Assembly: GCA_030630935.1 (NCBI GenBank)
Contig: DAOVMD010000030.1
Coordinates: 1 to 13,316, forward strand
Length of the DNA stretch: 13,316 nucleotides
Direction: 5' to 3'
From: Candidatus Mcinerneyibacteriota bacterium
GTDB lineage: Bacteria; AUK180; JAQVHJ01
Below, piece after piece: positions 5,329-13,316 of the stretch (position 1 is its first letter; every line of letters starts with the position of its first letter). A program made the translations under genes and the position numbers. The notes under the pieces are model-generated. The model ran no database searches. It worked only from the letters and a program-made list of their open reading frames with translations, and was not told the DNA's origin.

Positions 5329-6354
5329 ATGAAAAGACAAACAAAACCTGGTTTTGGTATAGAAGGATTTTCCAAATCAAAATTTAAATATGATGAAAAG
5401 GGAAATATAATAGAAGAAAAATATGTTGGTACAAATGGACAATTGAAAGAGCTTGATTATAATGGTTATGCCATAATGCGGTGTAAGTATGATGAGCGGG
5501 GAAACACTGTTGAAGAAAAATTTTTTGGTTCAGATGAGCAATTAAAAGAGCGAAGAGACATGGGGATTGCCATAATCCGCCGAAAATTCAACAACAAGGG
5601 CAAGAAAATAGAAGAGAGCTACTTCGGGTCGGATAACCAAATGAAAGAGCGAGCGGATTACTCTATTGCAATAATTAAATATAAATATGAAAATAATGGA
5701 AATGTTGAGGAGAAATATTTCGGGATTGATGAAAGTTTAAAAAACCGCAAGGATTTGGGGGTTGCCATAATACGGAAGAAATTTAATAAGCAAGGCAATT
5801 TAACTGAGGAAAGTTTTTTCGGAACCGATGACCAATTGAAGAGTTTTAAAAATTCAGGTATTGCAATAATCAGGTATAAGTATGATGAACAGGGAAATTC
5901 GATTGACCAAAGATATTACTGTAATGTTCATAAATTGAAGGAGCGTGAGGATACAGGTGTTGCTATCACTCAGTATAAATATGATGAGCAGGGAAACGCT
6001 GTAGAAGAAAGATTTTTTAATACTGATAAAAAATTAACAGAAAATAAAAAAATAGGAGCAGCTATACTCAAGTTTAAATATAATAAGAACGATCAAGTCC
6101 TGGAGTTAAGGAGTTTTGGAAAAGACGAGAAATTAATAGATATGACAGAGCCTATGGGTGGTAGTGCGATAATTTGTTTTAAATATGATAAAAATGGAAA
6201 CAGAATAGAGATAAAGTACCTGGATATTAACGGTAAATTAAAAGAAATCAAAAACGTTGGTGCTGCCATATTACGTTGGAAATATAATGAACAAGGGGAA
6301 GTAATTAAAACTCAATTTCTAAACCGAAACGAAGAAATAATTCTCAAACAGTAA
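5329..6354 (+). CDS. Protein of ten 33-residue YDxxGN repeats
   Basis: A 341-residue protein made almost wholly of repeats. About ten units of 33 residues follow the pattern (R/K)xK(Y/F)(D/N)xxGNxxEExFFGxDxxLKExxxxGxAII, with the last one incomplete. Similar 'YDERGN...YFGxDG' repeats occur in many bacterial proteins of unknown role, and they are distantly like the YD units of RHS proteins. They probably stack as a beta-rich rod or solenoid that binds other molecules. There is no signal peptide, membrane segment or catalytic domain, so it is predicted cytoplasmic unless exported by a route not seen here. ATG is preceded by AAGGAGA and a strong promoter. It is transcribed alone, and an inverted-repeat element separates it from the next operon. 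The units differ much at DNA level, so the array is old. Function unknown. Confidence 0.75.
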   Translation: MKRQTKPGFGIEGFSKSKFKYDEKGNIIEEKYVGTNGQLKELDYNGYAIMRCKYDERGNTVEEKFFGSDEQLKERRDMGIAIIRRKFNNKGKKIEESYFGSDNQMKERADYSIAIIKYKYENNGNVEEKYFGIDESLKNRKDLGVAIIRKKFNKQGNLTEESFFGTDDQLKSFKNSGIAIIRYKYDEQGNSIDQRYYCNVHKLKEREDTGVAITQYKYDEQGNAVEERFFNTDKKLTENKKIGAAILKFKYNKNDQVLELRSFGKDEKLIDMTEPMGGSAIICFKYDKNGNRIEIKYLDINGKLKEIKNVGAAILRWKYNEQGEVIKTQFLNRNEEIILKQ

Positions 6355-8568: not shown

Positions 8569-9213
8569 ATGTTTGGTAAATTTTCAAAAGAAGACCAGGT
8601 TTATAAAAAGATTGATGAATTTTTAAACCTCGGAACAGATTGTTTAAGCAAGCTGTCAGAGACTCTTCAGTTGTATTTAGAGAATGATAAGAAGTATGTT
8701 GATTTCTCATATTCCGTTCACCGGATAGAATCAAAGGCAGATGATATTCGAAGAGAGATAGAACAGTTTCTCATGGAAGGTGCTTTTCTTCCCTTGTTCA
8801 GAGCTGATATTATCGGTTTCTTAGAGAAAACCGACGGGGTTCTGGATAAGTGCGAAAGCCTATGTGATTATTTGGTTTTATTTAAACCAAAATTTCCCGA
8901 GGGAATGGCGGGAGGTCTTCAGGAAATTCTTGATCATACGCTAAAAGGATATTCTTTTTTATGTGAAGCTTATTATATGCTGCTTAATGACTTGAAAAAG
9001 GTTAGTGAACTATGTTTGAAGATTGAAAGAGAAGAAGGAAAGGTAGATAAGATCGAATGGAATTTGCAGAAAACATTGTTCGATAATGAAAACATTGAGC
9101 TTGCTGAGAAAATTTTATTAAGAGATTTTATTTCATTCATTTCAGATATTTCTGATATCATTGAAGATAGCTCTGACAAAATTGAACTAATTCGAATGAC
9201 TAGAAACTTATAA
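8569..9213 (+). CDS. PhoU-like DUF47 phosphate transport regulator
   Basis: A 214-residue all-helical protein of the DUF47 (PhoU-like, TIGR00153) family. The ExxxD-type metal or phosphate contact region appears twice, as RIESKADDIRREIEQFL near residue 45 and as KIEREEGKVDKIEWNLQ near residue 146. The end (DISDIIEDSSDKIELI) is typical of the family. Such proteins sit beside PiT transporters and are thought to control phosphate flux at the membrane. The PiT gene follows 20 bases later, which strongly supports this role. ATG is preceded by AGGAGA. It is probably cotranscribed with the debranching enzyme. Confidence 0.9.
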   Translation: MFGKFSKEDQVYKKIDEFLNLGTDCLSKLSETLQLYLENDKKYVDFSYSVHRIESKADDIRREIEQFLMEGAFLPLFRADIIGFLEKTDGVLDKCESLCDYLVLFKPKFPEGMAGGLQEILDHTLKGYSFLCEAYYMLLNDLKKVSELCLKIEREEGKVDKIEWNLQKTLFDNENIELAEKILLRDFISFISDISDIIEDSSDKIELIRMTRNL

Positions 9214-9233
9214 TATTGTAACGAAGGAATTTT

Positions 9234-10190
9234 ATGTTAGCTTTTATTCAAAGTTTCTGGCGTTTAACATCCGGAGTCTTTTTAGGTTGGGGACTAGGAG
9301 CAAATGACGCTGCAAATATTTTTGGAACCGCGGTTTCAAGTAAACTGGTAAAATATAGAACCGCGATTATTCTCACTGCCTTTTTTGTAATCATCGGGGC
9401 TTTATTAGAAGGTTCAAAAACGTTTGATACAATTGGAAAATTATCTAGCCTAACTCTTAATACTGCTTTCATCGCATCGTTCGCTGCAGGACTTACTGTT
9501 TTGATAATGACCACCGTGAAACTTCCTATTTCTACTTCTCAAGCGATAGTTGGAGCAATTTTAGGAATAAGCATTTTTTATAGACAGGGTATCGACTTTA
9601 GTAAACTTACAAAAATTTTAATTTGCTGGGTTTTAACTCCGCTTGGTGCTGTTGTTATAAGTTTTATTCTTTACAAAATCATTGACTTTATCCTTTCAAA
9701 GATTCGCTACGGTGAAAGGAAACTTCATTTGATTGTAAAGATTGGTGTCATTCTCTCCGGATGTCTTGGAGCATATTCATTGGGTTCAAACAATGTTGCG
9801 AATGTCACAGGTGTTTTTGTTGGAATTGATGGACCCGGACAAATAACTCCGTTTATGGGAACCTTAATCGGCGGAATAAGTATTGCCCTTGGTGTCCTGA
9901 CTTATAGTAAAGCTGTTATGAGGACAGTGGGGAAGAAAATTACGACCCTAGGTCCGATCACTGCATTCATTGCGGTTCTCGGGTCTGCGATAACCGTCTA
10001 TATCTTCACTCAGGTGGGGGTGCCGGTATCAACTTCACAAGCAATTGTCGGGGCTGTCGCGGGAGTAGGCCTTGTTAAAGGAATGAACGTAATTAACTTT
10101 AGAACAATCGCGAACATTGGCGTCGGCTGGGTATCGACACCTCTTATTGCCGGTACGGTCGCTGCATTAATGTGTTTATTTATTAAATAA
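9234..10190 (+). CDS. PiT-family inorganic phosphate transporter
   Basis: A 318-residue membrane protein with about ten hydrophobic segments, in the short form common in archaea and many bacteria (E. coli Pit is much longer). It takes up phosphate, as a metal-phosphate complex or with H+ or Na+. The inverted-repeat halves each carry the family signature: GANDAANIFGT at 22-32 with PISTSQAIVGA at 98-108, then GSNNVAN at 184-190 with VPVSTSQAIVGA from 263. The second signature has SNN in place of AND, as is usual for the second half of some PiT proteins. The ATG at 9234 has GAAGGAA upstream. It is the last gene of the operon; no terminator hairpin with a T-run is seen after it. Confidence 0.93.
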   Translation: MLAFIQSFWRLTSGVFLGWGLGANDAANIFGTAVSSKLVKYRTAIILTAFFVIIGALLEGSKTFDTIGKLSSLTLNTAFIASFAAGLTVLIMTTVKLPISTSQAIVGAILGISIFYRQGIDFSKLTKILICWVLTPLGAVVISFILYKIIDFILSKIRYGERKLHLIVKIGVILSGCLGAYSLGSNNVANVTGVFVGIDGPGQITPFMGTLIGGISIALGVLTYSKAVMRTVGKKITTLGPITAFIAVLGSAITVYIFTQVGVPVSTSQAIVGAVAGVGLVKGMNVINFRTIANIGVGWVSTPLIAGTVAALMCLFIK

Positions 10191-10672: not shown

Positions 10673-11182
10673 TTACTTAAGTTTTCTAGAGCTTGAAAAT
10701 TTCTTAAAATACAAAGTTATTTTTTCCCTTTCTTCGATATGAATTCTGGGAAGCTCTATTGCTTTAGTTTTTCCATTTCTTAATTTTAACTTAACATAAA
10801 ACTTATTAATTTTAACAACATCTTCTATCTCTTCTAAAAGTATTACTTCTTTTTTATTTCGAAATTTGTGAAAAATTATTTTATCAGGACATAATGTTAA
10901 GTACGGTTTTTTTATCTTAGATATAATTAATAAAATCATTTCTAATATTCCGCCTAAAATTATAATAATAAAAGCATATTCAGACATAAACCCAAAAAAA
11001 TCATAGAAAGCCTGTTTGTTTATATGATAAAAAGAAAAGAAAGCTATTATAAATAATATTATTAAGGTTAAGATTAAAAAAATAAACCCAAGAGAAGTTG
11101 GAAGCATTATAGCGTGAAATGTCTTATTCGTTTCTTTTACGTTTTTATTATGTAATGACGTATTGTTGTTCGATATCCCCAT
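10673..11182 (-). CDS. Small two-TM membrane protein, function unknown
   Basis: A 169-residue protein that I do not recognise. Residues about 27-52 (a long I/L/F-rich run) and about 67-89 (YAFIIIILGGILEMILLIIS) are two membrane segments. The last 75 residues are soluble and beta-rich (LTLCPDKIIFHKFRNKKEVI ... VKLKLRNGKTKAIELPRI). The style recalls the PH-like domains that follow paired membrane segments in bacterial bPH proteins, but this is weak. The ATG at 11182 has no strong ribosome site. The gene begins 17 bases after the GNAT gene, so it is probably the last gene of the oxoamine synthase operon and may be translated by coupling. Confidence 0.65.
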   Translation of the reverse strand: MGISNNNTSLHNKNVKETNKTFHAIMLPTSLGFIFLILTLIILFIIAFFSFYHINKQAFYDFFGFMSEYAFIIIILGGILEMILLIISKIKKPYLTLCPDKIIFHKFRNKKEVILLEEIEDVVKINKFYVKLKLRNGKTKAIELPRIHIEEREKITLYFKKFSSSRKLK

Positions 11183-11199: not shown

Positions 11200-12321
11200 T
11201 TATAATTTCTTGCCGTAGATTCGGTATGTTTTATATTTTTTTGCACCAAATACTTTTTCTGCAGTTCGATGAATAAGGACATTTTCTTCAAGTACCCAGG
11301 AAAATTCTACATATTCGTATTTATATTTTTTCGATGCTTGAAATGATTCATAAAAAAGCACGGAATCTATTCCTTGTTTTCTGTACCCTTCTCTAATACC
11401 AAGTAAAATAACTCTTGCTTTTTTTATTTTATTTCTATTTAATAAAAAAGTTAAAATTCCTAACGGTGAAAGCCGACCATTCATTTTTATAAAAACTTCA
11501 TTATAATCCGGAACGATTAAGATAAATGCAACTGGTTTTCCGTCGACAAATGCAAACCTTACCAGTTCTGGTTTTACCAGGTCTTTCAAGCCGTCAGCGA
11601 CCATGTCCATCTCTCTATCGGTCATTGGAACAAAACCCCAGTTATCACTCCAGGCATTGTTATAAACTTCTTTAATATATCCAAGTTCCCGTTTAAAATT
11701 TTTAAGGTCTACTCCCCTAGTTTCAATTTTATTTCTTTCTTTAATTTTCTTTGCAACTCGTTCCAGCTTGGGAGGAATATCAAAATCTAGTTTTGCCAAT
11801 AATGCAAACAACTCTTTATAGTTTGTTATACCACATTTTTTATATAGTTTTATATAATATTTTGGATTATATGTCATCATCAATACTGGTGGACTATCAA
11901 AACCCTCTATTAATAGACCGCACTCATCATTAGTTGATGGGTTCATCGGTCCGATCATATCTGTAAGACCTTGCTTTCTGTTCCAGTCTTCTGCTGTTTT
12001 AAAAAGTGCTTCAGAAACGTCTTCGTCATTAATTGATTCAAAAAAACCAAAATATCCGGAATTTGTCTTGCTGTGCTTTATAAAATTATCGTCCCTTATT
12101 GCAGCAATGGTTCCTGAAAATTTTCCATCTTTATATGCCATAAAAAGTTCTGCATCACCATGATCAAAGAAAGGACTTTTTTCTTTATCTAAAAGTTTTA
12201 TTTTTTCACTTATAATTGGCGGGACCCAGTTTTTATCACCCTTATAGATTTTCCAGGGAAATGTAACAAACTTTTTTAAATCACGTTTTGTTGTGACCTT
12301 TCTAATTTCTATATTTGACAT
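11200..12321 (-). CDS. YghO-like GNAT-family acyltransferase
   Basis: A 373-residue protein of the large GNAT-fold family that includes E. coli YghO. N-terminal landmarks are FPWKIYKGDKNWVPP, KSPFFDHGDAELFMAY, GYFGFFESI, GPMNPSTNDECGLLIEGFDS and MMTYNPKYY, all strongly conserved in this family as I know it. The C-terminal GNAT part has the acyl-CoA loop GIREGYRKQGIDSVLFYE. The substrate in this organism is unknown. It directly follows an oxoamine synthase with nine bases between stop and upstream GTG, so an N-acyl transfer to the synthase product is the leading idea. I chose the ATG at 12321, five bases after AAGGAG; a GTG at 12327 would overlap that ribosome site. It is probably translationally coupled to the gene before it. 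Confidence 0.85.
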   Translation of the reverse strand: MSNIEIRKVTTKRDLKKFVTFPWKIYKGDKNWVPPIISEKIKLLDKEKSPFFDHGDAELFMAYKDGKFSGTIAAIRDDNFIKHSKTNSGYFGFFESINDEDVSEALFKTAEDWNRKQGLTDMIGPMNPSTNDECGLLIEGFDSPPVLMMTYNPKYYIKLYKKCGITNYKELFALLAKLDFDIPPKLERVAKKIKERNKIETRGVDLKNFKRELGYIKEVYNNAWSDNWGFVPMTDREMDMVADGLKDLVKPELVRFAFVDGKPVAFILIVPDYNEVFIKMNGRLSPLGILTFLLNRNKIKKARVILLGIREGYRKQGIDSVLFYESFQASKKYKYEYVEFSWVLEENVLIHRTAEKVFGAKKYKTYRIYGKKL

Positions 12322-12326
12322 TTGCA

Positions 12327-12332
12327 CTCCTT
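12327..12332 (-). promoter_or_regulatory. Shine-Dalgarno site that sets the GNAT start
   Basis: On the minus strand AAGGAG lies five bases before the ATG at 12321. It shares bases with the alternative GTG start at 12327, which is therefore unlikely. Confidence 0.75.
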
Positions 12333-12335
12333 AAA

Positions 12336-13316
12336 TTAAATAATATTTAATTCTTTTCCAATTATTTCAAATGCCTTAAGTGCTTTATCCAACTGCTCTT
12401 CTGTATGAGTTGCCATAAAGCTTGTTCTAATCAATGAATCGCCTTGAGGTACAGCTGGTGGAACAACCGGGTTAACGAAAACACCGCTATCAAGCAGCAT
12501 TTTTCTCATTTTAAATGCGAGCATGAAATCACCAACTCTAATAGGGATAATCGGAGTTACTGATTCTCCTGCATCAAAACCTAGATCCTTAAAACCTTTC
12601 CTCATCTTTTCTGTATTCTTCCACAATTGTTCTCTTCTCTCCGGTTCATTTTTAATAATATCAAGAACGGCAAGGACTGTTCCTAAAGATGCCGGTGGTA
12701 AGCTTGCACTAAAAATTAATGTTCTTGAGTGATGCCTAAGGTAATGAATTACGTTTTCGGGTCCTGCAACATAACCCCCTATGGTGGCAAATGATTTACT
12801 AAAAGTATTCATTATTAAATCAACTTCATCTTCCAGACCAAAGTGTTCAGCAGTTCCACGACCATTTGAGCCTAATATTCCTACAGAATGTGCATCATCA
12901 ATTAAAATTCGAGCATTATACTTTTTCGACAGCTCAACTATATTCGGCAAATCGCATAGGTCTCCTTCCATACTGAAAACTCCATCCACAACAATAAGTT
13001 TTCCAGAGTCTCCGGCTTTTTTAAGCATTCTTTCTAAATCCTTCATATCATTATGTTTAAACTTCAAGATCCTTCCAAAGCTTAACCGGCATGCATCAAT
13101 TATACTCGCGTGATCTAATTTATCAATAATAACAAAATCTCCTCGATTTACCAAGGTAGGAATTATTCCGAGATTTGTCTGAAATCCTGTTGAGAAAGTA
13201 ATCGCGGTTTCCTTTTTCAAAAACTTCGCTAACTTCTCTTCAAGTTTCCGATGAAGATCAAGTGTTCCGTTCAAAAATCTTGAACCTGCACAGCCAACTC
13301 CATACTTCTCAAGTGC
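12336..13316 (-). CDS. Alpha-oxoamine synthase, serine-palmitoyltransferase-like (5' part beyond window)
   Basis: The visible 326 residues lack only the N-terminal portion; the frame is open to base 13316 and reads in from the family motif YGVGCAGSRFLNGT. The family is PLP-dependent and condenses an amino acid with an acyl thioester, losing CO2 (BioF, Kbl, HemA, Spt). Visible landmarks are the DHAS ring-stacking histidine, IDDAHSVGILG, and the PLP lysine in NTFSKSFATIGGYVAG (lysine codon 12795-12797, visible residue 174). Near the end is IRTSFMATHTEEQLDKAL. TFSKS at the lysine, and HHSRTLIFSASLPPA after it, are closer to serine palmitoyltransferases than to BioF or Kbl, which usually have GTLGKA. 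A YghO-like acyltransferase follows. I favour an Spt-like enzyme, but 7-keto-8-aminopelargonate synthase or glycine C-acetyltransferase cannot be excluded. Confidence 0.85.
   Translation of the reverse strand, partial: ALEKYGVGCAGSRFLNGTLDLHRKLEEKLAKFLKKETAITFSTGFQTNLGIIPTLVNRGDFVIIDKLDHASIIDACRLSFGRILKFKHNDMKDLERMLKKAGDSGKLIVVDGVFSMEGDLCDLPNIVELSKKYNARILIDDAHSVGILGSNGRGTAEHFGLEDEVDLIMNTFSKSFATIGGYVAGPENVIHYLRHHSRTLIFSASLPPASLGTVLAVLDIIKNEPERREQLWKNTEKMRKGFKDLGFDAGESVTPIIPIRVGDFMLAFKMRKMLLDSGVFVNPVVPPAVPQGDSLIRTSFMATHTEEQLDKALKAFEIIGKELNII

Follow-up and report, generated by a model that had tools for sequence, protein, structure and literature searches.

Five genes have been tied to dihydroceramide synthesis: spt, the N-acyltransferase gene aca (yghO), aasR, epi and acpR (PMC9386255). 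At the Escherichia coli BL21 locus, yghO is divergent from a row made of a fatty acyl-AMP ligase, an NAD-dependent epimerase-type gene, an acyl carrier protein and spt. In the model proposed for Caulobacter, Spt makes 3-oxo-sphinganine, bCerS N-acylates it and CerR then reduces it, the first two enzymes being cytoplasmic and CerR periplasmic (PMC11087976). This places acylation before reduction, an order that is disputed for bacterial ceramide synthesis. E. coli K-12, for its part, lacks spt. Bacterial Spt, bCerS and CerR, and the pathway that they form, are already known from many bacterial phyla; Spt-like genes have been reported from 38 phyla of one water column among MAGs of the Black Sea (PMC11334938).

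The locus studied here lies at the edge of an entire contig (C175) of 13316 bases, the whole of which was analysed and is referred to as the window. The assembly to which it belongs comprises 3.16 Mb in 471 contigs and is 80% complete. An initial annotation had proposed a ceramide-type pathway for two of its genes, and we have examined this proposal by phylogeny, structure prediction and comparison of gene order in relatives.

Results

Layout of the locus

Three genes follow each other closely on the - strand. The first, at 12336-13316, encodes an Spt-type alpha-oxoamine synthase from about residue 68 to its end, an open frame of 326 aa that runs off the contig. After 8 bases comes a gene with a GTG start (11200-12327, 375 aa) for a tandem-GNAT, YghO-like N-acyltransferase that is a candidate bacterial ceramide synthase; both genes and their spacing agree with the initial description of a synthase and a tightly linked GNAT. 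The third gene, 17 bases further on, encodes a small membrane protein of 169 aa (10673-11182, - strand) and falls just outside the interval first annotated (11200-13316). It is possibly co-transcribed with the GNAT. It had been put forward as a possible added part of the pathway, but has no relative in any fetched related locus, and we reject it as a conserved part of the operon; class members carry a receiver-domain-like gene after the GNAT in its place. Its match to the STM3941 family is weak (18.7 bits for a cut-off of 40). Elsewhere in the window, a PhoU_div (DUF47) and PHO4 phosphate transporter pair (8569-10190) comes after a glycogen debranching enzyme gene, and a 341-aa protein with RHS/YD-like repeats (TIGR01643, 52.6 bits) is encoded at 5329-6354.

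A CerR-type reductase gene, probably across a contig break

The corresponding locus of a sister genome (L031, JAQVHJ010000001.1) reads NTPase - CerR-type SDR - Spt - GNAT. Searching the window's genome with the sister SDR returned one clear orthologue, 45% identical, on another contig (C282:8180-9169), all remaining SDRs of the genome matching at E about 1e-14 or weaker. One base past this cerR gene, MTDLFEKCDKFLEARKVMK extends up to the contig end at 9228. It can be aligned to the start of the Spt of the sister genome (residues 1-19), a 19-residue match that is weak on its own (E 0.19). The Spt frame of the window starts at residue 68, and residues ~20-67, about 48 codons, are absent from the assembly. 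C282 and C175 are most likely neighbours, with spt split by the contig break and these ~48 codons missing between them, an adjacency that draws strong support from the same gene order in the sister genome. Four further members of the class (G002, G003, G005 and G006) share with the sister genome an uninterrupted cerR-spt-GNAT order. A ketoreductase gene, which was to be looked for upstream of position 13316, is seen as a CerR-type SDR gene in place in these five relatives, and in the window's genome it most likely lies there by way of C282. As a family these SDRs are generic: their best NCBIfam matches lie far under cut-off, and the same is true of the BL21 gene. In both genomes cerR is preceded by an NTPase gene whose 440-aa product weakly matches cobW/HypB (G000:C282:6850-8172, L094 171-1493; L031 4484-5806 in the sister genome).

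The synthase groups with Spt

Among NCBIfam models, the window synthase is best matched by that of the Bacteroidota-type Spt (NF047600), with 485 bits versus 382 for the next one, about 67 residues being missing from the frame. The intact orthologue of the sister genome (394 aa, 79% identical to the window gene over the shared part) scores 580 bits, versus 447 for the next family. Neither the sister Spt nor the truncated window gene reaches the curated cut-off of 640 bits, so we do not claim the narrow equivalog label for them; the cut-off of this curated model would miss this Spt. The best solved relative is the Spt of Sphingobacterium multivorum (3a2b, 392 bits), followed by a Thermus BioF/Kbl-like enzyme (292 bits) and Kbl (at most 272). 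Identity is 54-56% with the Spt of Sphingobacterium and Parabacteroides versus 30-42% with the BioF, Kbl and HemA references.

The alignment shows four catalytic positions retained: the stacking His, the Asp, a second His and the PLP lysine. The lysine lies in NTFSKSF, confirming the TFSKS motif noted initially. All five Spt references have TFSKS, and it occurs in 34 of the 78 aligned synthases; at this position the BioF, Kbl and HemA references have TFGKG, TFGKA, TFSKA, TLGKA, TLSKA or TMAKA. The motif is informative but a weak marker of Spt, given that one BioF has TFSKA, and the tree is the real test.

Phylogeny against Spt, BioF and Kbl had been set beforehand as one of the analyses that could refute the proposal. 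In a careful maximum-likelihood tree of 61 sequences, the window synthase groups with those of its own class (support 100/97), and this class groups next with the Spt of Sphingobacterium and Parabacteroides (98/95). A clade of 43 rows (100/97) joins them with the enzymes of Sphingomonas, E. coli BL21 and Roseomonas, and so holds all Spt references, BioF, Kbl, HemA and the Thermus enzyme being outside. Forcing the window's group together with Kbl (p 5e-46) or with BioF (p 9e-7) was rejected by AU tests.

An enzyme of this kind could also run the same chemistry on another amino acid, such as alanine, glycine or cysteate, the outcome being a 1-deoxyceramide or a sulfonolipid. Alanine can serve as a substrate of Spt, and both 1-deoxy and sulfur-bearing sphingolipids are reported in Black Sea bacteria (PMC11334938). 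A solved cysteate fatty acyltransferase is indeed a relative, with 278 bits to the sister enzyme, but the S. multivorum Spt is much closer, with 453 bits, and the genes on either side, CerR-type and YghO-like, belong to the ceramide pathway. We consider the use of another amino acid unlikely.

The window's genome has a second synthase (L086, G000:C1; 431 aa). We weighed it as an alternative Spt and rejected it, since its sequence is divergent, at 32-33% identity to that of the window, with an SLGKA motif and a best NCBIfam score, below cut-off, to bioF. Its gene adjoins those of a lipid kinase (DAGK_cat) and an Oxidored_FMN protein.

Full-length homology of the GNAT to YghO

Along its full length (residues 6-375) the window GNAT shares 34% identity with the YghO of E. 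coli BL21 (E 5e-78), which has been published as a candidate ceramide N-acyltransferase. AlphaFold2 models it as a confident tandem GNAT (pLDDT 91, pTM 0.88), whose best structural matches are tandem GNATs (Z about 24, rmsd 3.4, 305 aligned). N-myristoyltransferases, which have long-chain acyl-CoA as substrate, also match (Z about 16, rmsd about 5); the likeness of a predicted tandem-GNAT fold does not, however, establish function. When solved structures were searched by sequence, the single sequence gave no match and the profile only weak generic GNAT matches.

GNAT loci were retrieved with the window GNAT as the similarity query, so the linkage counts do not describe a random sample. Among 81 distinct relatives, a synthase lies within 2.5 kb of the GNAT in 43 and is absent in 23 (a class for which at least 2 kb of flank was required), and 15 are unjudgeable. 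Synthase-linked members occur in Ignavibacteriota, Bacteroidota, Bdellovibrionota, a Zixibacterium, KSB1 and others; their gene orders vary, and a CerR relative is often present. In the GNAT tree, for which YghO served as reference, Spt-linked and unlinked members are interleaved and YghO is a long branch elsewhere. The initial view of a YghO-like GNAT is borne out by the full-length relationship, but a clean ceramide synthase branch does not emerge from the tree alone. The window's own clade contains six rows, all of them Spt-linked (support 98), and its sister (84) is an unlinked clade that includes a paralogue from contig C247 of the window's genome.

As the family has members without a linked synthase, belonging to it is by itself no proof of ceramide synthesis. 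The GNAT might acylate another amine, as the C247 paralogue may too, and sit in the operon for some other reason; the mixture of linked and unlinked members and the unlinked sister clade would fit such a role. Against it, the six Spt-linked members of the lineage form one clade apart from their unlinked paralogues, and linkage between GNAT and synthase recurs across phyla, which leads us to regard a non-ceramide role as very improbable. The C247 gene itself stands in a row (L085 750-7958) with TetR-like regulator, BD-FAE hydrolase, MMPL/RND transporter, LolA-like and DUF1302 genes, which perhaps serves another N-acyl lipid and its export.

A deep lineage

When 15 named genomes are included for comparison, an rpoB tree sets the window's genome apart, together with its class, in a clade of their own (100/100). 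In this genome rpoB and rpoC form one fused frame (G000:C426:4341-11566, L187), with 2408 aa before the contig ends; the fusion is also found in class members, as in G005:C188:3417-11795 (L188), with 2792 aa. The rpoB frames of the 15 named comparison genomes are of ordinary length.

Discussion

The two genes at the end of the window very probably close a cerR-spt-bcerS operon that would, by homology, make dihydroceramide. What has been established directly for this operon is the homology of its products, the position of its enzymes in trees, the gene order in relatives, the catalytic residues of Spt and the predicted fold of the GNAT. The Spt tree, the homology to YghO and the CerR-type gene upstream all support the initial reading of an Spt and a GNAT acting in a ceramide-type pathway. 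It is scarcely credible that the synthase is instead a BioF (biotin) or Kbl (threonine degradation) enzyme beside an unrelated acetyltransferase, for although it belongs to the same superfamily and the TIGR01825, PRK06939 and bioF models match it strongly, below their cut-offs, both groupings fail the AU tests and no bio or tdh genes adjoin it, the biotin genes that would have spoken against Spt included. Its neighbours are instead genes for a YghO relative and a CerR-type SDR, an order that five relatives share.

In the dihydroceramide pathway that we propose, Spt would condense L-serine and a fatty acyl thioester into 3-oxo-sphinganine in a PLP-dependent reaction, the tandem-GNAT enzyme would place a second fatty acyl chain onto the amine, and the CerR-type SDR encoded on C282 would reduce the ketone to give dihydroceramide. 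We infer the substrates, the order of acylation and reduction, the product and the use of acyl-CoA or housekeeping ACP from sequence. As to the acyl donor, a gene for a dedicated acyl-AMP/ACP ligase was to be looked for upstream; a search at E 1e-20 gave no aasR relative in the 80%-complete window genome or in the sister genome, nor in four of five class genomes, the fifth (G004) giving one partial match. The operon of the relatives has no acyl carrier protein gene. Since no dedicated ligase was found in these searches, the window's genome being incomplete, the donor is probably acyl-CoA or a housekeeping ACP. That the deep lineage as such has ceramide-type lipids, made by a three-gene operon fed by acyl-CoA or housekeeping ACP and perhaps built on an uncommon amino acid or bearing an uncommon head group, is a proposition that we advance tentatively and with some doubt.

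The three-gene set is the standard one of bacterial ceramide synthesis, carried here by a deep lineage, and the pathway itself is known in many phyla. What is new is a deep lineage with a compact and syntenic cerR-spt-bcerS operon, which fits the reports of widespread bacterial ceramide synthesis. Such a three-gene cassette could be expressed in another host to test whether acylation or reduction comes first, a point under dispute.

Compared with the set known from Caulobacter crescentus and E. coli BL21 (spt, bcerS or aca/yghO, cerR or epi, acpR and aasR; PMC9386255, PMC11087976), the window's lineage has homologous Spt, YghO and CerR-type proteins, likewise encoded in a cluster. Identity to the BL21 proteins is 41% for the window Spt, 34% for the GNAT and 24% for the CerR of the sister genome. 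The lineage differs from this set in its order, cerR-spt-bcerS in one tight operon, in the lack of any aasR relative found in the window's genome and of an ACP gene in the operon of its relatives, and in its Spt, which is of the Bacteroidota type. The Spt of Bacteroidota (S. multivorum 3a2b, Parabacteroides) are 54-56% identical to the window synthase and fall in the same supported clade, yet in Parabacteroides spt adjoins a diacylglycerol-kinase-family gene, whereas in the window's lineage it adjoins bcerS and cerR. In this respect the locus resembles what has been described in Black Sea MAGs, where bCerS and CerR lie close to Spt in many uncultured lineages (PMC11334938).
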